Assembly: GCA_001898625.1 (NCBI GenBank)
Contig: MKUP01000006.1
Span: forward strand, 62,001 to 126,000
Source: Burkholderiales bacterium 67-32
GTDB taxonomy: Bacteria > Pseudomonadota > Gammaproteobacteria > Burkholderiales > Burkholderiaceae_B
DNA length: 64,000 bases
Reading direction: 5' to 3'
The notes under the pieces were generated by a model that saw only the letters and a program-made list of their open reading frames with translations, did no database searches and was not told the DNA's origin. Numbering within the stretch: position 1 is the first letter of the stretch; each line of letters starts with the position of its first letter. This document shows positions 13,021-36,672 of the stretch, one piece after another. Made by a program: the position numbers and the translations under genes.

Positions 13021-14280
13021 TCAGGCCTGGTCCAGCGCCCGCACGTCGGCCCGCCGCCACCACAGCAGGACCATGCCGGGCAGGGCGATCACTACGGTGA
13101 CCAGGAAGAAGGTGGGCCAGCCGTAGTTTTCCACCATGGGCGGGGCCAGCGGCCCGGCCAGGTAGGTGCGCCCCACGGCCGACAGGGCGGACAGCAGCGC
13201 GAACTGGGTGGCCGAGAAGCGGTGGTCGCACAGGCCCATGAGCAGGGCCACGAAGGCCGCCGTGCCCATGCCGCCGCACAGGTTCTCGATGCCGACGGCG
13301 GCGGCCATCAGCAGGATGCTCTTGGGGCTGATGGCGAGCAGCCAGAATCCCAGGTTGGAGACGGCCTGCAGCAGGCCGAACAGCATCAGCGACCGGAACA
13401 GCCCCAGCTTTGCCAGCAGCGAACCGCCCGCCAGCGCGCCGATGATGGTGGCGCCCAGGCCCAGCACCTTGTTGATGGTGCCGACCTCGGTGGCGGAGAA
13501 GCCCGCGCCGCGGATCAGGAAGGCGGTGGACAGGCTGCCGGCGAAGGCGTCGCCCAGCTTGTAGAGCACGATCAGCACCAGCAGCACGATGGCGCCGGGG
13601 CGGCGGAAGAATTCGACCAGAGGTCCGGTCACGGCCTCGGCCAGCGTGCGGGGCGCGGCGGCGGGCATTTCGGGTTCGGGGGCCCACAGCGTGGCCAGGA
13701 CGGCCAGGCCCATCAGGCCGCCCATCAGCACGTACATGTTGCCCCAGCCCAGCCAGCTGTCGGCGATGACCAGGGCCAGGCCGCCCGACACCAGCATGGC
13801 CAGCCGGTAGCCCAGCACGGATACCGCGGCGCCGGCGCCGCGTTCTTCCTTGCGCAGCACGTCGGTCCGGTAGGCGTCGAAGGCGATGTCCTGCGAGGAC
13901 GAGCAGAAGGCGACGAACACGGCGATCAGCGCCAGCGGCAGCAGGGCACTGCTGGGCGAGAGCAGGCCCATGGCCATGATGGCGAACGCCAGCAGTAATT
14001 GCGTGACCACCATCCAGCCGCGCCGGCGGCCCAGCAGCGGCGGCGTGTAGCGGTCCATCAGCGGGGCCCAGAGGAACTTCAACGTGTAGGCTGAGCCGAC
14101 CAGGGTCAGGAAGCCGATGGCCTGCAGCGACACGCCATCCACGGTGGCCCAGGCCTGCAGCGTGCCGCTGGTCAGCGCCAGGGGCAGGCCGCTGGCGAAG
14201 CCCAGGGCCAGCAGCGGCGCGACGCGCCGGTTCGTGTACAGCGACGAGGCGGCCGCGGGCGCCTCCGGGCGGGCGTTCAA
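13021..14280 (-). CDS. ampG: AmpG family muropeptide MFS permease
   Basis: A 419-residue, 12-span MFS protein with typical AmpG segments: LGFASGLPLALTSGTLQAW near the N-terminus, SSQDIAFDAYRTD (about residues 135-147), and GALAGG in the second half. AmpG imports anhydro-muropeptides for cell wall recycling and influences AmpC induction. Its start overlaps the stop of the upstream 109-residue gene (ATGA), and that gene follows the orotate phosphoribosyltransferase-like gene by 22 bases, so it is probably transcribed from the XRE-side promoter. Why a recycling permease shares this operon is unclear. Confidence 0.85.
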   Translation of the reverse strand: MNARPEAPAAASSLYTNRRVAPLLALGFASGLPLALTSGTLQAWATVDGVSLQAIGFLTLVGSAYTLKFLWAPLMDRYTPPLLGRRRGWMVVTQLLLAFAIMAMGLLSPSSALLPLALIAVFVAFCSSSQDIAFDAYRTDVLRKEERGAGAAVSVLGYRLAMLVSGGLALVIADSWLGWGNMYVLMGGLMGLAVLATLWAPEPEMPAAAPRTLAEAVTGPLVEFFRRPGAIVLLVLIVLYKLGDAFAGSLSTAFLIRGAGFSATEVGTINKVLGLGATIIGALAGGSLLAKLGLFRSLMLFGLLQAVSNLGFWLLAISPKSILLMAAAVGIENLCGGMGTAAFVALLMGLCDHRFSATQFALLSALSAVGRTYLAGPLAPPMVENYGWPTFFLVTVVIALPGMVLLWWRRADVRALDQA

Positions 14281-14606
14281 AATATCTTTCCGCTGCGGCC
14301 GTAGTCCAGCACGATCCAGTTCAGGGCGGCGACGAGATCCTGCGCCGTGCCGGTCCTGAATGCTTCGTCGAGCCGGTTCATGTAGGAAAGGAGCTGGGTC
14401 TTCGCGGTTTCGGCGAAGGCGGGCGCGATGCCCTGGTCTTCATACAGCAGCACGTACGAGCGGGCGAAACCGTAGACCAGGAAGTAGGCGGCGGCATGTT
14501 CGGAGTCGCTGGAGACCAGCGCCAGCGAGCCTTCCTTGACCTTGAGGAAACTGTCGGTACCGGGGGCCTGGGCGGCGAAACGTTGGATCAGATCGGTGAA
14601 GTTCAT
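14277..14606 (-). CDS. Hypothetical 109-residue protein
   Basis: Unrecognised small soluble protein, predicted mostly helical, starting MNFTDLIQRFAAQAPGTDSF. It has an aromatic central stretch (AAYFLVYGFARSYVLLYED) and ends DYGRSGKIF. It has neither a signal peptide nor cysteines. It lies 22 bases after the phosphoribosyltransferase-like gene and overlaps ampG by four bases, so coupled translation is likely. Codon use is like its neighbours, supporting a real gene. Confidence 0.7.
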   Translation of the reverse strand: MNFTDLIQRFAAQAPGTDSFLKVKEGSLALVSSDSEHAAAYFLVYGFARSYVLLYEDQGIAPAFAETAKTQLLSYMNRLDEAFRTGTAQDLVAALNWIVLDYGRSGKIF

Positions 14607-14628
14607 AACACGTGGGTAGCGATAAAAG

Positions 14629-15303
14629 TCACGGAAGGCGGGAGATGCCGCCGTGGGCCTTGGACCATTCGGAAGTATGGAGCAGGAATCCTTCTACTTT
14701 TTCGATGTCGGCGGCGGTCAGGACCGTGCCCGTCCTGGCCTGCGCGATGATGTCCTGCCAAGTGGCCAGCGCGTGCATCGTGACACCGATTTCTTCCATG
14801 GTACGCCGGCTTTCGGCAAACGTATCGTAATAGAAGATGCTCAGGACGTGGGCCAGCTCCAGGCCCGAATCGCGTACCGCCTTGCAGAAGTTGCGCTTGC
14901 TCTGGCCGTCGGTGGTCAGGTCGTCCACCAGCAGCACTCGCGCGCCGGCCTGCGCCATGCCTTCGATCTGCGCGTTGCGGCCGAAGCCCAGCGGCTTCTT
15001 GCGCACGATCAGCAGCGGCAGCGACAGCCGGTCGGCCAGCCAGGCGGCGTAGGGCACGCCGGCCGTCTCGGCCCCGGCGATGGCGTCGATGTTCTGCACG
15101 CCGATGCGATGCCGCACCACCGCCTGCGCCGCGTCCACCAGCACCTTGCGCCCCGCCACCGACGAGATCAGCCGCCGTACGTCCACATACACCGGACTGG
15201 CCCAGCCCGAGCGCAGGATGAACGGTTTGGCCGAGCTGACGTGCACCGCCCCCGATTCCAGCAGCAGTTGCGCCACCGTCGATCCGATAGAGGTTTCTTC
15301 CAT
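14629..15303 (-). CDS. Orotate phosphoribosyltransferase-like protein (second copy)
   Basis: A 224-residue type I phosphoribosyltransferase. The PRPP-binding loop is VLLVDDLTTDGQSK (residues 123-136), the catalytic flexible loop is VRKKPLGFG..AQIEG (100-115), and the N-terminal region FILRSGWASPVYVD matches the orotate-binding part. It would convert orotate plus PRPP to OMP. It differs clearly from the canonical PyrE at 35944 (which has [11 protein letters not shown] and DDVISAGTS), so it is a paralogue rather than a duplicate. It follows the XRE gene by 36 bases and lies opposite the MFS-PyrK-PyrD genes, suggesting salvage of imported orotate. Substrate preference is inferred. Confidence 0.78.
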   Translation of the reverse strand: MEETSIGSTVAQLLLESGAVHVSSAKPFILRSGWASPVYVDVRRLISSVAGRKVLVDAAQAVVRHRIGVQNIDAIAGAETAGVPYAAWLADRLSLPLLIVRKKPLGFGRNAQIEGMAQAGARVLLVDDLTTDGQSKRNFCKAVRDSGLELAHVLSIFYYDTFAESRRTMEEIGVTMHALATWQDIIAQARTGTVLTAADIEKVEGFLLHTSEWSKAHGGISRLP

Positions 15304-15339
15304 TTCACTATTCCATGTGTGGGGGCGAACGACCCGCGG

Positions 15340-16221
15340 TCAGACCACCTTCAGCATGCTACTGAGAAGTTCCGCCGCTTGTTGCCCTTTGTAGGCGCGT
15401 TCCCATAGGTTTTCCACCATTTTCGTATAAAGCTCGACTGCCTCGGGCGCCGAGGTGACCTGGGCGATGCCGGTCGCGACGTTGGGCAGTTCGCCGAAGC
15501 GGAACGGGCTGACCGCCACGAACGAGGCGCTGGGCCGCTCGAATACCTGGAAGGTGGCGTTGGGCATGCTGTCGTCGACGATGCCGATCTGCATGTCCAT
15601 CGGGTGTTCGCGCAATAGATCGATGATCCGCTCGACCTCGCGCCGCGCCGCCAGCGACCGCTCCATGCGCACCGAGGGCGGCAGGTCGATGCGGCCCACC
15701 AGTCCGAAGTGGACGAAGCGTTCGATCTCGCGCAGTCCGATCAGGCTGATGATGGGCGGGCGGCGCCGGGCGTAGGCCCGCTTGCGCTCGCCCAGGATCT
15801 TCATCAAGGCCTGCATGCGCTCGGGTTCGATGCTGGGATGGGCCTCGTGCAGCATCTGTTCCAGGTAGCCAGCGTATTCGTCCGAGGTCAGCAGGAAGGA
15901 GATGGGCTCGAAATGGGCCATGATGCGCGTGGCGTCGGTCTCGAGCTGGCGCATGCGTTCGATGTAGGCCACCGGCGAGGTGTAGTACTCGGCCCCCACG
16001 CCCAGCAGCGAGGCCAGCGAGGTATCCAGGATGTGGGCCAGCCGCTCCAGCGTCTCGATCTTGACGATTTCGCCCTTCTCCATGCGGTACACCGCCGCCC
16101 GCGACACCCCCAGCTGAGCCGCGATGTCCTCGGCCCGCAGCGAGGCGCCTATCCGGTAGGCGCGCAGCCTTTCGCCGATGGCATGGAAGTCGACGACGCG
16201 CGATCTGGAAGAAGTGTTCAT
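15340..16221 (-). CDS. XRE-type transcriptional regulator of the orotate locus
   Basis: A 293-residue regulator. The N-terminal HTH_3 domain covers about residues 12-65 (GERLRAYRIGASLRAEDIA, then GVSRAAVYRMEKGE). It is followed by a roughly 200-residue C-terminal domain with no motif I recognise, presumably for ligand sensing. ATG 16221 gives a sensible N-terminus; the open frame runs 25 codons further. It heads the minus-strand genes and is divergent from the MFS transporter across a 356-base region with inverted repeats, so it probably controls both arms. Orotate, dihydroorotate or a pyrimidine nucleotide is the natural guess for the effector. Confidence 0.8.
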   Translation of the reverse strand: MNTSSRSRVVDFHAIGERLRAYRIGASLRAEDIAAQLGVSRAAVYRMEKGEIVKIETLERLAHILDTSLASLLGVGAEYYTSPVAYIERMRQLETDATRIMAHFEPISFLLTSDEYAGYLEQMLHEAHPSIEPERMQALMKILGERKRAYARRRPPIISLIGLREIERFVHFGLVGRIDLPPSVRMERSLAARREVERIIDLLREHPMDMQIGIVDDSMPNATFQVFERPSASFVAVSPFRFGELPNVATGIAQVTSAPEAVELYTKMVENLWERAYKGQQAAELLSSMLKVV

Positions 16222-16577
16222 CGAAGCAAGTCTAAAAATTGAGAATACTGGGTTTCGAGCAGCTCGCACACGACGCCCCGAAACCGAGCGGAACATCCCT
16301 TATTTGCCCAGTATTAGTGCGGGTTTGCACTAATATCGTGCGCGCCTGACAACATCGGGATTTACCTTATCAGCTTAGTGAAATTTCGCTTGAAAGGTAA
16401 GAAAAAGTGTCTTAGTCTAAAAAAAAAGACTTTCGGCGTAAACAGTTTTTGCCTGCTCCATGCCACAAGCATGTCCGGCACGGGCCGTCTCCTCCAGGGG
16501 GCGGCGCCGGCGGGAGGCAGCCGCCGCCTGGCAGCACCTTTTGATTGATGGATACCTCTTCCTTTCGGAGATAGGAA
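16222..16577. promoter_or_regulatory. Divergent regulatory region between XRE and MFS genes
   Basis: A 356-base non-coding stretch, AT-richer than its surroundings. It holds AATACTGGG (16244-16252) mirrored by CCCAGTATT (16308-16316), and TATTAGTGC (16312-16320) mirrored by GCACTAATA (16327-16335) around GGGTTT. It also has GGTTTCG/CGAAACC and a poly-A tract (around 16421-16429) flanked by AGTCT/AGACT. The MFS gene starts behind GGAGATAGGAA. The nested repeats are candidate operators for the XRE protein. Confidence 0.55.
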
Positions 16578-17828
16578 ATGGCAGACAAATACGCCGCGAG
16601 TCCCGGGGACATCCCCGCAGGCAAGGCGAACGAGGGCGAAGACTACGCCCGCAAGGCCGTCATCGCGTCGACGGTGGGCTACGCCCTCGACGGTTTCGAC
16701 CTTCTCATCCTGGGCTTCATCCTGGCCGCGATCTCGGCGGACCTGGGGCTGTCCAGCACCCAGGCCGGATCGCTGGTGACCTGGACGCTGGTCGGCGCCG
16801 TGGTCGGCGGCATCGTGTTCGGCTGGTTGAGCGACAAGCATGGCCGCGTGCGCGTGCTGAACTGGACCATCCTGCTGTTCGCGGTCTTCACCGGCTTGTG
16901 CGCGCTGGCCCAGGGCTATTGGGACCTGTTGGCGTACCGCACCATCGCCGGCCTGGGGCTGGGCGGCGAATTCGGCATCGGCATGGCGCTGGCCGCCGAG
17001 GCCTGCCGTCCCGAACAGCGCGCCCGCATGAGTTCGTACGTCGGCCTCGGCTGGCAGGCCGGCGTGCTGGCCGCGGCGCTGGTCACCCCCATCCTGCTGC
17101 CCATCGTGGGCTGGCGCGGCATGTTCGCCATCGGCGTACTGCCGGCGGTCGTGGCCTTCGTCATCCGCCATTTCATCGGCGAACCCAAGATCTTCGTCGA
17201 GAGCCAGAAGTCCACGGCGCCGAAGGAGAACGCGTTCAAGCTGCTCGTGGCGGATGCCAAGACCACGCGGACCAGCCTGGGCGTGGTCATCCTGACCTCG
17301 GTGCAGAACTTCGGCTACTACGGCGTGATGATCTGGATGCCGTCGTACCTGAGCAAGCAGTTCGGCTATTCGCTGACCAAGTCGGCGGGCTGGACCGCCG
17401 TCACCATCCTCGGCATGGCCTTCGGCATCTGGCTGTTCGGCCAGTTGGCGGACCGCGTCGGCCGGCGTCCCATCTTCCTGCTCTACCAGGTGGGCGCGGT
17501 GCTGTCGGTGCTGGCCTATTCGCAGCTCGAAGCGCAATACGCCCTGCTGATCGGCGGCGCCATCATGGGCATGTTCGTCAACGGCATGCTGGGCGGCTAC
17601 GGCGCGCTGATCTCCGAGTTGTATCCCACCCGGGCGCGGGCCACGGCACAGAACGTGCTGTTCAACATCGGCCGCGCCGTGGGCGGGTTCGGGCCGCTGG
17701 CCGTGGGCGCGGTGGCCGCGAAGTATTCGTTCAGCCACGCGATCGCGCTGCTGGCGTCGATCTACGTGCTGGACATCATCGCCACGCTGTTCCTGATCCC
17801 GGAACGCAAGGGTGCAAAGCTAGAGTAA
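16578..17828 (+). CDS. MFS transporter, aromatic/organic acid symporter type
   Basis: A 416-residue, 12-span permease. It shows the MFS signature loop GWLSDKHGRVRV (about residues 78-89) and its second-half counterpart ADRVGRRP (about residues 293-300), plus DGFDLLILGF in the first span as in aromatic-acid:H+ symporters. SD AGGAA precedes ATG 16578. It is the first gene of a line with pyrK, pyrD and a carbamoylase, which suggests that it imports orotate or a related cyclic ureide acid. A dispersed repeat lies between its stop and pyrK. Confidence 0.85.
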   Translation: MADKYAASPGDIPAGKANEGEDYARKAVIASTVGYALDGFDLLILGFILAAISADLGLSSTQAGSLVTWTLVGAVVGGIVFGWLSDKHGRVRVLNWTILLFAVFTGLCALAQGYWDLLAYRTIAGLGLGGEFGIGMALAAEACRPEQRARMSSYVGLGWQAGVLAAALVTPILLPIVGWRGMFAIGVLPAVVAFVIRHFIGEPKIFVESQKSTAPKENAFKLLVADAKTTRTSLGVVILTSVQNFGYYGVMIWMPSYLSKQFGYSLTKSAGWTAVTILGMAFGIWLFGQLADRVGRRPIFLLYQVGAVLSVLAYSQLEAQYALLIGGAIMGMFVNGMLGGYGALISELYPTRARATAQNVLFNIGRAVGGFGPLAVGAVAAKYSFSHAIALLASIYVLDIIATLFLIPERKGAKLE

Positions 17829-17830
17829 GG

Positions 17831-17906
17831 CCCCCCCTTACGCCCTTCGGGCGCCCCCCGGGGGGGCGGCACTGGCGGACCGGCGGAGCCGGATCCGCGG
17901 TGCCCA
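17831..17906 (+). repeat. Structured GC-rich repeat, copy 3 (between MFS and pyrK)
   Basis: The C-run begins two bases after the MFS stop. The first hairpin is CGCCC-TTC-GGGCG instead of the CGCG-type stem of copies 1, 2 and 5. The last stem closes with GGCAC/GTGCC and has a GGA loop. Both stems remain paired despite the base changes. Confidence 0.85.
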
Positions 17907-17960
17907 AGGTAGGTAGTAGTTATCGAGCGCTGGGGAGTTTTCCAGCGCAGAGGAATCAGA

Positions 17961-18797
17961 ATGGAAGTTGTATCGTCCGAATCGCATGTCGGGTGTTGCG
18001 CCGGACCTGCCGCGCCGGATACGCAGGGCGTGGTGATCAGCAATGCATGGGTCAACCGGGACTACAAGCACCTGGTGCTGGATGCCGGGCTGCCGGCCGC
18101 CGGGGCGAAGGCGGGGCAGTTCTTTCATCTGCTGTGCCCGTCGACCGAGCAGGATGCGCCGTTCTTTCGCCGGCCCATGAGTACCTACCGGGCCGATCCG
18201 GCCACGGGGCGGGTGGAGTTCCTGTACAAGGTGACCGGCGCCGGCACGCGCGGGCTGGCCACGCTCGAGGCGGGCGACAAGCTGCCGATGCTGGGGCCGC
18301 TGGGCGTGGGGTTCACGCTGCCCGCGGGCGCGCGCCATATCGTCGTGCTGGGGCGTGGCGTGGGGCTCGCGACGCTGGCGCCGCTGGCCGAGATGGCGGC
18401 GCAGGCGAAGGTGGGCGTGACGGCCATCCTGAGCGCGCGCGATGCCGCCAACCTGATGTCGCAGGAGCGGTTCGCGGCCATTGGCGCCACCATCATCGAG
18501 GTCACCGACGAGGCCGGCACCAGCGCGGTCGAGAACGTCGAGCGCCTGCTGCGTGAGCTGCATGCCGCGGGCCGCGCCGATGCGTTCTATACCTGTGGTT
18601 CGTCGCGCCTGACGCTGTTGATGCAGCGCCTGGGCGCCGAGTTGTCCGTGCCGGGCGAAGTGGCGATGGAGCAGCAGATGGCCTGCGGCATCGGCATGTG
18701 CTATTGCTGCGTGCGCGCGTTCCGCGAAGGCGACAAGCTGGTCAGCAAGCGCGTCTGCTGGGACGGGCCCGTGTTTCCCCTGGCGGAGGTGGCGTGA
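17961..18797 (+). CDS. pyrK: Dihydroorotate dehydrogenase electron transfer subunit (PyrK)
   Basis: A 278-residue FAD and [2Fe-2S] protein that links class 1B dihydroorotate dehydrogenase to NAD(H). The FAD motif RRPMSTY is at about residues 71-77. A Rossmann-like NAD domain contains GRGVGLATLAPL (about 131-142; Arg replaces the more usual Gly). The cluster ligands are Cys242, Cys247, Cys250 and Cys266 in CGIGMCYCC...C, complete. Start: ATG 17961 behind GAGGAATCAG. Its stop overlaps the pyrD start (TGATG), so subunits are made together. Betaproteobacteria normally use the quinone-linked class 2 enzyme for synthesis, so this NAD-linked pair may run in the reductive direction. Confidence 0.85.
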   Translation: MEVVSSESHVGCCAGPAAPDTQGVVISNAWVNRDYKHLVLDAGLPAAGAKAGQFFHLLCPSTEQDAPFFRRPMSTYRADPATGRVEFLYKVTGAGTRGLATLEAGDKLPMLGPLGVGFTLPAGARHIVVLGRGVGLATLAPLAEMAAQAKVGVTAILSARDAANLMSQERFAAIGATIIEVTDEAGTSAVENVERLLRELHAAGRADAFYTCGSSRLTLLMQRLGAELSVPGEVAMEQQMACGIGMCYCCVRAFREGDKLVSKRVCWDGPVFPLAEVA

Positions 18798-19732
18798 TGA
18801 TCGATTTGTCCGTAGAGGTAGGCGGGCTGCGCCTCTCCAATCCCGTGATGCCGGCCTCGGGCACGTTCGCCGACGGGCTGGCCAATACCATCGATTTCAA
18901 CCGCCTGGGCGCGTTCGTCACCAAGACCATCACGCACGAGAAGCGCACCGGCAATCCGGTCCCGCGCGTGGCGGAGGTGCACAGCGGCATGCTCAATGCG
19001 ATCGGCATCCCCAGCAAGGGGTCCGACTATTTCATCCGCGAGAGCATTCCGTTCTACCGGAAGTTCTCGCCGCCGCTGGTGGTCAGCATCTCGGCGCCGT
19101 CGAACGACGGTTTCGCGCGGCTGGCGGCCGAGCTGTCGCAGGTCGAGGGCGTGGCCGCCATCGAGGCCAACATCTCGTGTCCCAACATCGAGGAGGACGG
19201 CAAGGCCTTCGCGATGCATGCCCGCTCCACCGCCGCGGTGGTGAAGGCACTGCGCGCCTCGACTTCGCTGCCGCTGTGGGTCAAGCTCACGCCCAATACC
19301 GGCGAGATCGCCAACGTGGCCCGCGCGGCGCAGGAAGAGGGCGCCGACGCCATCGTGGCCGCCAACACCATCCTGGGCATGGCGATCGACATCGACACGC
19401 GCCGGCCCAAGCTGGGCAACGTCATGGGCGGCATGTCGGGGCCGGCGATCAAGCCCATCGTCGTGCGCATGGTGTACCAGTGCCACCGCGCGGTCTCGAT
19501 TCCCATCATCGGCTGCGGCGGCATCGCCACCGCCGAGGACGCGATCGAATACATGCTGGCCGGCGCGAAGGCCGTGCAGGTCGGGACGGCCACCTTCATC
19601 CATCCCACGGCCATGATCGACGTGATCGACGGCCTGGTGCAGTACTGCGGGCGCAAGGGCCTGTCCGGCCTGCAGGGGCTGGTCGGAGCGGTGGAAGACA
19701 CCGGCTTCGTGCCTTTCGAGGCGATGGCTTGA
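18797..19732 (+). CDS. pyrD: Dihydroorotate dehydrogenase, class 1B catalytic subunit
   Basis: A 311-residue TIM-barrel FMN enzyme interconverting dihydroorotate and orotate. It has a substrate and FMN Lys in VTKTITHEKR (Lys43), the class 1 catalytic Cys in ANISCPN (Cys128; class 2 enzymes have Ser here), Lys163 in LWVKLTPN, and FMN phosphate loops GMSGPAIKP and IGCGGI. Start ATG 18797 shares a base with the pyrK stop; the open frame upstream is not the real N-terminus. The carbamoylase gene begins 7 bases after its stop. It could also act on another dihydropyrimidine, but it lacks the Fe-S domains of PreA. Confidence 0.85.
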   Translation: MIDLSVEVGGLRLSNPVMPASGTFADGLANTIDFNRLGAFVTKTITHEKRTGNPVPRVAEVHSGMLNAIGIPSKGSDYFIRESIPFYRKFSPPLVVSISAPSNDGFARLAAELSQVEGVAAIEANISCPNIEEDGKAFAMHARSTAAVVKALRASTSLPLWVKLTPNTGEIANVARAAQEEGADAIVAANTILGMAIDIDTRRPKLGNVMGGMSGPAIKPIVVRMVYQCHRAVSIPIIGCGGIATAEDAIEYMLAGAKAVQVGTATFIHPTAMIDVIDGLVQYCGRKGLSGLQGLVGAVEDTGFVPFEAMA

Positions 19733-19739
19733 GGGCGAC

Positions 19740-21020
19740 ATGACAGCAGCAACCACGATGCCCGGTACCCAGGCCGTTCCCGGACGGCAGGAAGCGATCG
19801 ATCTGTTCGAGCGGATCCGCCAGCTCAGCTTCGATGGCGTCGGCGTCTCGCGCGAGAGCTACGGTCCCACCGAGACGGCCGCGCTGGACGCGCTGGTCGA
19901 ATGGGCAGGCGGACATGGTATCGCCGCGCAGACCGATCCCGCGGCCAACGTGGTGTTCTCGCTGGCGCAGGCGGGCGGGCAGGCGCCCATCGTGTGCGGA
20001 TCGCACATGGATTCGGTGCCCCAGGGCGGCAACTACGACGGCCTGGCCGGCGTCATCGCCGGCCTGCTGTGCCTGAAGCGGCTTAAGGACGAAGGCGTGC
20101 GGCTGGCGCATCCCTTGTGGGTCGCCGGCATGCGGGGCGAGGAAAGCGCGTGGTTCGGCAAGGCCTACATGGGGTCCAGCGCCATCCTGGGCAAGCTCAA
20201 GGCGGACGACCTGGCGCTGCGCAACAAGCGCAGCGGCCGCACGCTGGCCGAGGCCATGGCCAGCGTGGGCGCCGACGTGGGCAGCATCGCCGCCGGCAAG
20301 CCGGTGCCCTGGGTGTCGGGCGTGCGCGCCTACCTGGAGCTGCACATCGAGCAGGGGCCGCTGATGGTGGCCCGCAAATGGCCCACGGCCATCGTCTCGG
20401 GCATACGCGGCAACATCCGCCACAACCTCGTTCGGTGCGTGGGCGAACCCGGGCACTCCGGCGCCGTGCCGCGCTGGCTGCGCAACGATGCGGTGTTCGC
20501 GGTATCCGACCTGCTGATGCGGCTGGACGAGCACTGGCGCGTGCTGCTGGAACGCGGCAACGACCTGGTCGTGACCTCGGGCGTGATGGGCACCGACCCC
20601 GCCGAGCACGCCGTGTCGCGCATTCCCGGCCGGGTCGATTTCAGTTTCGAGGTACGCAGCGAAAGCACCGAGACGCTGGAGGAGTTCTACCGCGTGATGC
20701 GTGCCGAATGCGACGAAGTGGCGCGTCAGCGCGGGGTGCGCTTCGAGTTCGACCGGCGCATCGAATCGGCCCCGGCCACCATGGATGCGCAACTGGTGCA
20801 ACTGCTGCTGGATACCTCGGCGGAACTGGCTTTGCCAGCCGAGAAGATTCCCAGCGGCGCCGGACATGACGCGGCCCTGTTCGCCAACGCCGGCATCCCC
20901 TCGGGCATGATCTTCATCCGCAACGAGAACGGCTCGCACAATCCGGCCGAGGCCATGGAGATCGACGACTTCATGGCGGGCGTGGACGTGCTGTACCGGT
21001 CGCTGCCCAAGGTGGCGTAG
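19740..21020 (+). CDS. M20-family Zn-dependent carbamoylase (candidate N-carbamoyl-aspartate hydrolase)
   Basis: A 426-residue amidohydrolase of the allantoate amidohydrolase / N-carbamoyl-L-amino acid hydrolase group. Metal and active-site motifs are visible: GSHMDSVPQGGNYDG (about residues 86-100), EES (GEESAWF), LHIEQGP, GAGHDA and NGSHNP. Members cleave ureido acids to an amino acid, CO2 and ammonia. Placed 7 bases after pyrD, the best-fitting substrate is N-carbamoyl-L-aspartate, made from dihydroorotate by a dihydroorotase not present here; this is inference. It is convergent with a LysR gene 4 bases away. Confidence 0.82.
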   Translation: MTAATTMPGTQAVPGRQEAIDLFERIRQLSFDGVGVSRESYGPTETAALDALVEWAGGHGIAAQTDPAANVVFSLAQAGGQAPIVCGSHMDSVPQGGNYDGLAGVIAGLLCLKRLKDEGVRLAHPLWVAGMRGEESAWFGKAYMGSSAILGKLKADDLALRNKRSGRTLAEAMASVGADVGSIAAGKPVPWVSGVRAYLELHIEQGPLMVARKWPTAIVSGIRGNIRHNLVRCVGEPGHSGAVPRWLRNDAVFAVSDLLMRLDEHWRVLLERGNDLVVTSGVMGTDPAEHAVSRIPGRVDFSFEVRSESTETLEEFYRVMRAECDEVARQRGVRFEFDRRIESAPATMDAQLVQLLLDTSAELALPAEKIPSGAGHDAALFANAGIPSGMIFIRNENGSHNPAEAMEIDDFMAGVDVLYRSLPKVA

Positions 21021-35943: not shown

Positions 35944-36672
35944 GTGACCGCCGTGCCCCAGACCGCTACCGCCCCCCGTCCCGCCGACACCGAGCCCTCG
36001 ATCGACGAGAGCCGTTTCCGTACCGATTTCGTCCGCTTCGCCACCGAGCTGGGCGTGCTGCGATTCGGCGCGTTCACGACCAAGGCGGGCCGGCTCAGTC
36101 CCTACTTCTTCAACGCCGGGCTGTTCAACAGCGGCGCGGCCGTGGGACGGCTGGCCGAATTCTACGCCCAGGCCCTGCTGGCCTCGGACGTCGAATTCGA
36201 CATGCTGTATGGCCCGGCCTACAAGGGTATTCCGCTGGTAACCGCCACGGCGGTCGCACTGGCCGCCCGCGGCCGCGACGTGCCCTTCGCGTTCAACCGC
36301 AAGGAAGCCAAGGACCACGGCGAAGGCGGTTCGCTCGTCGGCGCGCCGCTGGAAGGCCGCGTGGTCATCATCGACGACGTGATCTCGGCCGGCACCTCGG
36401 TGCGCGAGTCGGTGCGCCTGATCCAGGCCGCCAAGGCCAAGCCGGCCGCGGTGCTGATCGCGCTGGACCGCATGGAGCGCGTCGGCCCCGACGACGCCTT
36501 GTCCGAGCACTCGGCGGTGCAGGACGTGGTGCACACCAACGGTTGCCCGGTGGTCAGCATCGCCTCGCTGGACGACATCCTCGACATGATCCAGCAGGGC
36601 GGCGGAGGCGGCGAATTCGAACAGCACCGCGAGGCGGTGCTGGCGTACCGGGCGCGCTACGGGGTGATCTGA
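35944..36672 (+). CDS. pyrE: Orotate phosphoribosyltransferase (canonical)
   Basis: UMP synthesis: orotate plus PRPP to OMP. 242 residues, slightly extended at the N-terminus (Pro/Thr-rich first 20). The canonical motifs are [13 protein letters not shown] (flexible loop, about residues 118-130) and [13 protein letters not shown] (PRPP loop, about 140-152). The start is GTG 35944; GTG 35953 is an alternative and neither has a strong ribosome binding site. It overlaps the convergent hydrolase gene by 16 bases. It is distinct from the divergent homologue at 14629. Confidence 0.93.

Follow-up and report, generated by a model that had tools for sequence, protein, structure and literature searches.

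The anaerobe Clostridium (Zymobacterium) oroticum ferments orotate by means of a class 1B orotate reductase, a dihydroorotase and a ureidosuccinase. Both this reductase and the Bacillus subtilis enzyme are classed as 1B (PMC10395836). Here we describe a locus in a stretch of 64,000 nucleotides (the window; contig C6, MKUP01000006.1, positions 62001-126000) from the 6.66-Mb genome of Burkholderiales bacterium 67-32, which combines a permease, PyrK, a class 1B PyrD and an M20-family carbamoylase, and which likely encodes an inducible system for the use of external orotate, mainly as a source of nitrogen. The closest named relative of the host is Pigmentiphaga sp. NML030171 (protein identity of 96-99% over the nine genes compared), and we refer to the host as Pigmentiphaga below. 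The proposed route shares its three chemical steps and its class of orotate reductase with the C. oroticum fermentation, but the window-type system is found in Proteobacteria, nearly all of them with a further PyrD, and its cluster adds a permease, a regulator of the XRE family, a protein resembling orotate phosphoribosyltransferase (OPRT) and a protein of 109 residues, and occurs on plasmids as well.

Other described systems share parts of this logic. In reductive uracil catabolism, the ring is reduced and opened and the carbamoyl group is removed (PMC2713857). The enzymes of that pathway (dihydropyrimidine dehydrogenase, dihydropyrimidinase and beta-ureidopropionase) follow a like logic with related folds; however, the window PyrD, at 146 bits, stays below the PreA cut-off of 335, the ring-opening enzyme linked to PyrK and PyrD (PyrKD) in relatives is a dihydroorotase, and a dihydropyrimidinase was recognized by model only at the related locus L081, where PyrKD is not adjacent. 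At L081:6984-11763, genes for an OPRT-like protein and an M20 enzyme come immediately after those for this dihydropyrimidinase (PRK13404) and for a carbon-nitrogen hydrolase. ErtE (NF058540), the N-carbamyl-L-glutamate amidohydrolase of ergothioneine utilization, is also an M20 carbamoylase that acts on a dicarboxylic carbamoyl amino acid, but the window M20 protein reaches 275 bits against a cut-off of 520, which makes it a non-member, and its partner genes differ. The PyrC, PyrD and PyrE enzymes of de novo pyrimidine synthesis are homologous to the cluster enzymes, whereas the cluster copies are additional or altered in Pigmentiphaga and are linked with genes for a permease, a regulator and a carbamoylase. 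The chemistry is old, but a search of the open-access literature by title and start of abstract, with subscription journals mostly outside its reach, found no description of an orotate-degrading gene cluster in Proteobacteria, nor of the small protein or the plasmid form.

Four genes of the locus are arranged in one line on the forward strand. They encode a permease of the major facilitator superfamily (MFS; 16578..17828, 416 residues), which is the candidate orotate importer; PyrK, the FAD/2Fe-2S electron-transfer subunit of class 1B dihydroorotate dehydrogenase (17961..18797, 278 residues); the class 1B PyrD catalytic subunit, the proposed orotate reductase (18794..19732, 312 residues); and an M20 amidohydrolase of the hydantoinase/carbamoylase family, the proposed N-carbamoyl-L-aspartate amidohydrolase (19740..21020, 426 residues). 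The last 4 bases of pyrK are shared with pyrD, and a gap of 7 bases lies between pyrD and the M20 gene. The reverse strand carries genes for the XRE-family regulator (15340..16296, with a likely start at 16224 that gives 294 residues; assigned by family scans and a model), which has a large C-terminal domain, for the OPRT-like protein (14629..15303, 224 residues) and for the 109-residue orphan protein (14277..14606). The initial annotation, made from the sequence alone, had placed the four forward genes in one line and the regulator and OPRT-like protein opposite them, and all four frames are indeed open at the positions given here, with the two opposing genes present on the reverse strand.

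In the mechanism that we propose, the MFS permease would import orotate, PyrD-PyrK would work in the reductive direction with NADH to form dihydroorotate, and a dihydroorotase would open the ring to give N-carbamoyl-L-aspartate. The M20 enzyme would then convert this compound to aspartate, NH3 and CO2, an irreversible step that would pull the reversible ones toward degradation. Ring opening in Pigmentiphaga would most likely fall to the housekeeping class II PyrC, and in many relatives to a PyrC encoded in the cluster. In addition, the XRE protein would control both promoters via GTCTMA-N4-TKAGAC-like sites, and the 109-residue protein would be an accessory of PyrDK and/or M20. The OPRT-like protein has probably ceased to function as an OPRT; its ligand may be orotate, phosphoribosyl pyrophosphate (PRPP) or a partner. 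What the sequences show directly is which genes are present, their extra copies, their conserved linkage, the loss of a lysine from the OPRT-like protein and a fusion of the 109-residue protein to M20; the substrates, the direction of the reactions, induction and the roles of the OPRT-like and 109-residue proteins are inferred from these.

The assignment of the two catalytic proteins is supported by family models and by conserved residues. PyrD scores 367 bits on NF005574, above the cut-off of 269, and also passes TIGR01037, its best relatives in the Protein Data Bank (PDB) are 5ue9 and 1ep1, the latter named as the PyrD subunit of dihydroorotate dehydrogenase B, and the class 1 catalytic-cysteine motif is present next to PyrK as NISCPN (Ser128-Cys129), where we take Cys129 to be the catalytic residue of a class 1B enzyme. 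The M20 protein had been read as a carbamoylase-type enzyme, and it passes TIGR01879 for that family (272 bits against 204), although it passes none of the more specific models scanned; its best PDB relative is 3n5f, an N-carbamoyl-L-amino acid hydrolase, and residues H89, D100, E135, H202 and H400, presumably the metal ligands, are invariant in all nine aligned sequences. PyrK contains the PF10418 Fe-S binding domain above its cut-off and a Cys-rich motif. Two scores weigh against a specific assignment to orotate: PyrK reaches only 96-125 bits against PyrK equivalog models with cut-offs of 219-314 (the best score, 125, being against 314), and the model nearest to the MFS protein, TIGR00895 for aromatic acid/H+ symport, gives 327 bits against a cut-off of 419. 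Because both proteins fall below these cut-offs, other substrates are possible.

The host genome contains its own set of biosynthetic enzymes. Of its three PF01180 proteins (L001, the window PyrD L002, and L003), L001 is a class 2 PyrD (NF003646, 530 bits against 457; TIGR01036, 390 against 200). The absence of a separate class 2 enzyme had been named initially as grounds for regarding the window PyrD as biosynthetic, and with L001 found, the class 1B protein is an extra one. The third protein, L003 (C11:149190-150101), is a distant PyrD-domain protein with 45 bits to PF01180 and no NCBIfam match at 1e-40. A canonical PyrE is encoded within the window itself (35944-36672; TIGR00336, 191 bits against 107), a class II PyrC lies on contig C27 (470 bits against 293), and a second dihydroorotase-family protein was recognized on C23 by model NF005791. 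It had been noted at the outset that the window lacks the dihydroorotase that the route needs, and this holds for dihydroorotases of the Amidohydro_1 family, as none of the 26 genome-wide matches to it falls inside the window, a point that counts against the proposed route. A class I dihydroorotase-like gene on C25 (L016) was considered as a catabolic enzyme and set aside, since TIGR00857, a broad model, is the only one of 25 listed that it passes, and the genes around it look unrelated by eye. Also rejected was the idea that the OPRT-like protein is the sole PyrE of the genome, which arose because NF001729 gives only one match above its cut-off; translation of L006 and TIGR00336 revealed the canonical enzyme.

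The evidence that joins these genes into one pathway comes mainly from relatives of the M20 protein. One genome per species was scanned with an alignment of nine M20 sequences, and the best 80 of 582 confirmed relatives were kept; these loci are partly non-independent (for example, they include four from Pandoraea and several SAR116 records). PyrK and class 1B PyrD were present within 6.5 kb of M20 at 46 of the 80 loci, a linkage above chance, and a dihydroorotase occurred at 18 of these 46, being a class II PyrC at 16 and class I-like at two (Pseudomonas L154 and L162). Three of the cluster dihydroorotases were checked against models, and all exceeded the cut-offs (TIGR00856, 436 bits for L094 and 429 for L141 against 293; 699 against 535 for L154). 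The gene order MFS-PyrK-PyrD-M20-PyrC is found in Cupriavidus (L094, L105), Variovorax (L103) and Hydrogenophaga (L101), and the order TRAP-PyrK-PyrD-M20-PyrC-OPRT, with a tripartite ATP-independent periplasmic (TRAP) transporter, in Pseudovibrio (L141, L158). Near M20 at the PyrKD loci, an XRE regulator is present at 33 of 46, an MFS importer at 20 and a TRAP permease (DctM) at 12. At one locus, in Cupriavidus basilensis (L104), the matches to PyrK, PyrD and PyrC are split. Another PyrD of at least 150 bits is encoded elsewhere in 35 of the 36 PyrKD-cluster genomes among the 49 searched (a hand count, with class 2 modelled in the Pigmentiphaga genome only); the exception, L151, has only fragments. 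In the four betaproteobacteria searched (L094, L101, L103 and L105), the PyrC of the cluster comes in addition to another copy in the genome. These comparisons support the view that a dihydroorotase belongs to the orotate system, and the linkage of PyrKD, M20 and dihydroorotase gives good comparative support to the initial proposal that orotate would be reduced and broken down to aspartate, ammonia and CO2.

A sample that was not selected on M20 gives a related picture. Among 399 genomes of the order, 18 encode a relative of PyrK, with PyrC adjacent at 11, M20 adjacent at four (the window included) and neither at three (L068, L202 and L205, the last at a contig end). Ten of the 11 PyrC-adjacent loci come from one family, in which XRE-PyrK-PyrD-PyrC and OPRT-M20 are found at two loci, and all seven of its genomes with an OPRT match above the cut-off beside M20 (L075-L080 and L082) also have the PyrK locus. 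This two-locus arrangement accounts for some, but not all, of the M20 loci without PyrKD, and a first impression that the 34 such loci represent a different pathway does not hold for this family, since its PyrK-PyrD-PyrC lies elsewhere in the same genomes.

Several of these observations count against an assignment to orotate degradation throughout the M20 clade. No dihydroorotase is visible at 28 of the 46 PyrKD loci, the 34 loci without PyrKD pair M20 with an OPRT-like protein, and amidases, a dihydropyrimidinase or a flavin monooxygenase occur at some of the M20 loci that lack PyrKD or belong to the related sample, so that this clade may act on more than carbamoyl-aspartate. It is conceivable that the system degrades another imported N-heterocycle or carbamoyl acid (a hydantoin acid, a substituted pyrimidine carboxylate or dihydroorotate itself, for example), in which case orotate would be no more than an intermediate or analogue. 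The divergence of PyrK, the variation of importer type between MFS and TRAP, and the UbiD decarboxylases, molybdenum hydroxylase or amidases that lie near PyrKD or M20 in some relatives would fit such a substrate. However, the recurrent combination of PyrDK with a class II PyrC, both checked examples of which lie well above the model cut-off, points to dihydroorotate and carbamoyl-aspartate as intermediates, and we regard a different substrate as unlikely.

Some neighbourhoods in these samples merit description in their own right. UbiD-type decarboxylases are encoded near PyrK-PyrD-PyrC at L199:2781-5860 (two genes, which adjoin an operator-like site) and at L193:7051-8628, and could perhaps supply the route with a pyrimidine carboxylate or draw one from it. 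At L202:10394-13230 the large subunit of a molybdenum hydroxylase and, by eye, a small Fe-S subunit lie beside PyrK-PyrD, as in N-heterocycle catabolism. At L129:6364-12108 a LysR/OPRT-like/M20 group without PyrKD is followed by a flavin monooxygenase (PF01494) and, by eye, a TctC-like receptor; L130, L132 and L134 start similarly, and this group possibly represents an oxidative route that uses the same M20 clade.

The OPRT-like protein passes NF001729 (279 bits against 245), and its score of 103 to TIGR00336 is just below the cut-off of 106.8. In an alignment with 4ohc, an orotate phosphoribosyltransferase in the PDB, it reads RKKPLGFG where 4ohc has the loop RKKPKGFG, so the catalytic-loop lysine at the position of Escherichia coli K103 is replaced by Leu105. 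Acetylation of K103 in the E. coli enzyme lowers kcat 150-300-fold, and the same report terms this lysine essential, citing earlier Gln and Ala substitutions, although the C. botulinum OPRT in the same panel is without it (PMC10087573). Among 67 OPRT-like rows adjacent to M20, the lysine is missing from 39 and kept in 28, with 20 against two in the betaproteobacteria; a first impression from 13 sequences, that every M20-linked OPRT-like protein lacks it, thus failed in the larger set. A tree made without the loop columns, and without seven distant rows and one truncated row, implies at least four changes of the lysine and has long branches to the lysine-less groups, although the method was a quick one and several forks are unsettled. 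In a hand count across 49 genomes, the linked OPRT-like copy lacks the lysine in 24, bears it in 14 and is missing from the cluster in 11; another OPRT of at least 95 bits was present in 22 of the 24 lysine-less genomes (the exceptions being L161 and L163) and in four of the 14 lysine-bearing ones (Fisher p = 1e-4, with a threshold set afterwards and relatedness ignored). The dN/dS ratio against L093 is 0.039 for the OPRT-like gene, 0.057 for PyrD and 0.127 for M20, which indicates strong purifying selection on a gene that is not decaying. No OPRT-like gene was found at E <= 1e-3 in the examined stretches of Klebsiella, Pseudomonas, Pandoraea and two of three Cupriavidus (L094, L105), so the protein is dispensable for the core of the system.

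The initial annotation had proposed that imported orotate might alternatively be salvaged to orotidine monophosphate (OMP) by this protein, and such an active OPRT would fit its match to NF001729, its retention of the Asp pair of the PRPP motif, the purifying selection, the lysine-bearing alphaproteobacterial relatives that are probably active, the natural lack of the lysine in the C. botulinum enzyme, and the lysine-less L163, a metagenome-assembled genome with no other OPRT above 31 bits. Set against this are the leucine in the loop, the kinetic cost of modifying the E. coli lysine, and the second OPRT that accompanies lysine-less copies far more often than lysine-bearing ones. With a canonical PyrE in the same window and several clusters that lack the OPRT-like protein, the salvage proposal is not upheld, and we consider OMP synthesis by this protein unlikely. 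The OPRT-like protein is instead probably a pseudoenzyme that has a function other than OMP synthesis. PurR of Bacillus is a regulator with a phosphoribosyltransferase fold, and by analogy with such regulators one guess is that the OPRT-like protein serves as a sensor.

The same counts bear on whether the locus might be a second route of pyrimidine biosynthesis (PyrC, PyrDK and PyrE) for growth at low oxygen, in which M20 would have an unrelated role. In Gram-positive bacteria, Bacillus subtilis among them, class 1B PyrD serves biosynthesis; in 10 of the 14 genomes whose linked OPRT bears the lysine, no other OPRT reaches 95 bits; and the cluster PyrC is the sole class II PyrC in nine of 10 alphaproteobacteria searched (the exception being L168). 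These last two results argue against a purely catabolic locus and suggest that in such genomes it may also serve biosynthesis. On the other hand, a carbamoylase encoded in the same operon would break down an intermediate that biosynthesis needs, the permease and regulator belong to the unit, betaproteobacteria either have no OPRT-like gene or mostly have one without the lysine (20 of 22 rows), and class 2 PyrD, PyrE and PyrC are encoded elsewhere in the Pigmentiphaga genome. A biosynthetic role in place of orotate degradation is therefore very improbable.

The 109-residue protein (termed DUF109 here) was defined by a hidden Markov model (HMM) that was built from 10 members and then iterated. 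It is encoded at 32 of the 46 PyrKD loci and at one of the 34 others (Fisher p 3e-10, which ignores relatedness), and also occurs at L083, in the window and on Klebsiella and Pseudomonas plasmids. In Xaviernesmea oryzae (L166:7752-9629) and a Rhizobiales isolate (L169:7911-9605) it is fused in frame to the C-terminus of M20, and the two fusions may stem from one event. Its association with PyrKD, taken with its fusion to M20, suggests an accessory role in the pathway. The predicted structure consists of five helices (mean predicted local distance difference test score, pLDDT, of 96.2); a Foldseek comparison of this model with the PDB gave 167 matches, none reaching E 0.001, the scan of 33 members against Pfam gave nothing better than E 0.02, and neither family library scanned with the window proteins assigned the orphan to a family. 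Models of defence systems likewise matched neither the orphan nor the OPRT-like protein, and matched the XRE protein only at the level of its helix-turn-helix (HTH) domain. The orphan gene had been overlooked when the locus was first delimited as 13021-21020; the core genes do lie in this span, but its first gene, on the reverse strand at 13021..14280, encodes an AmpG muropeptide permease that lies outside the system. AmpG was considered as a member and rejected, since it passes the muropeptide transporter model (717 bits against a cut-off of 656) and is found near M20 at only three of the 80 related loci.

Regulation of the system was approached through the XRE protein, which aligns with 32 relatives at 40-97% identity (alignment A3). 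By sequence it matches the PDB only in its N-terminal HTH, and its predicted structure (mean pLDDT 90.7) has a structured C-terminal part of ~215 residues. A candidate operator, GTCTAAAAATTGAGAA (16230..16245), lies 6 bases before the likely XRE start and differs by one mismatch from the palindrome GTCTMANNNNTKAGAC; a second, GTCTAAAAAAAAAGAC (16415..16430), upstream of the MFS gene, has two mismatches, a level not above chance, and as a single-strand foldback was no better than shuffled sequences. The window contains the element GTCTAAAA at two places, against 0.17 expected (two were reached in one of 100 shuffles), and each of the two lies between the likely XRE start and the MFS gene. Between the two genes, at 16312-16335, there is also a perfect 9-base inverted repeat, TATTAGTGC / GCACTAATA, that is distinct from the proposed operator. 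Across the 36 loci with an XRE gene, 43 sites match GTCTMANNNNTKAGAC with at most one mismatch, and 39 of them fall in the stretches of up to 350 bases before XRE, MFS, DctP, PyrK, OPRT-like or PyrC genes, which account for 7.8% of the sequence; with 40 shuffled palindromes the mean was 2.9 sites (largest 24), at most four of them upstream, and the 44 loci without XRE gave five sites, three of them upstream. Four sites with one mismatch were found on a Pseudomonas putida plasmid.

A number of results speak against this operator. Its consensus was derived from the same loci, so the position of the sites, and not their number, is the evidence. In addition, 16 of the 36 XRE loci lack an upstream site with at most one mismatch, the 81 sites found at two mismatches were equalled or exceeded by four of 30 shuffled palindromes, and the two-locus family gave mixed results. 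No site with one mismatch was found in the Klebsiella copy of the cluster or, for operator-like sites, on contig C27 with the housekeeping PyrC, and the whole Pigmentiphaga genome has four GTCTMANNNNTKAGAC-like places against three for a reversed-pattern control.

The cluster is also carried by plasmids. An M20 search of plasmids returned 76 records at E <= 1e-80, including a P. putida plasmid with a divergent XRE gene and MFS-PyrK-PyrD-M20-dihydroorotase-109-residue protein, and a Roseomonas plasmid with PyrK-PyrD-M20-OPRT. On the Klebsiella pneumoniae plasmid NZ_CP050823, isolated from milk, the cluster is followed by lacY and lacZ, and the annotated order is an MFS gene (pointing away), a hypothetical protein, dihydroorotate dehydrogenase, a Zn-dependent hydrolase, dihydroorotase, a helix-turn-helix regulator and a second hypothetical protein. 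The two hypothetical proteins are PyrK (43% identity to the window PyrK) and the 109-residue protein (HMM E 4.5e-28), and identities to the Pigmentiphaga genome are 68% for MFS, 56% for PyrD, 54% for PyrC and 54% for XRE. In this stretch (NZ_CP050823.1:56954-74183, L206) the cluster adjoins copper genes as well as lacYZ. The 7.2-kb cluster matched 55 records, all from Klebsiella, and had no match in the E. coli collection; 53 of the records cover at least 80% of its length at 99.9% identity or more, and a longer stretch that ends in lacY is covered to at least 80% in at least 51 records. As raw counts, nine of the 53 came from milk or mastitis milk and 29 from human samples.

Orotate is a pyrimidine building block present in milk. 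In cow milk, orotic acid amounts to 32-36 mg/L (PMC8614319), and the Klebsiella plasmid may aid growth in milk. A wider and more tentative proposal, which we regard as possible but doubtful as a whole, is that these genes form a mobile orotate-catabolic system in which the five-helix 109-residue family is part of PyrDK or the carbamoylase, an OPRT without catalysis that arose repeatedly where a second PyrE exists acts as an orotate/PRPP sensor or partner, and the cluster, taken up in complete form by Klebsiella plasmids next to lac, serves the joint use of lactose and orotate.

The cluster is common to many Proteobacteria and to some Klebsiella plasmids, and its genes are labelled in deposited annotation after their biosynthetic relatives. 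Its analysis yields candidate orotate importers, orotate reductases, ureidosuccinases and regulators in genera that include Cupriavidus, Variovorax, Pandoraea, Pseudomonas and Pigmentiphaga, defines an undescribed family of small proteins with a clear partner, and reveals a natural series of OPRTs in which the catalytic lysine is kept or lost. It also suggests a possible reason for the presence of pyrD and pyrC beside lac on some Klebsiella plasmids: if the proposal is true, such a plasmid would let two milk nutrients, lactose and orotate, be used together.

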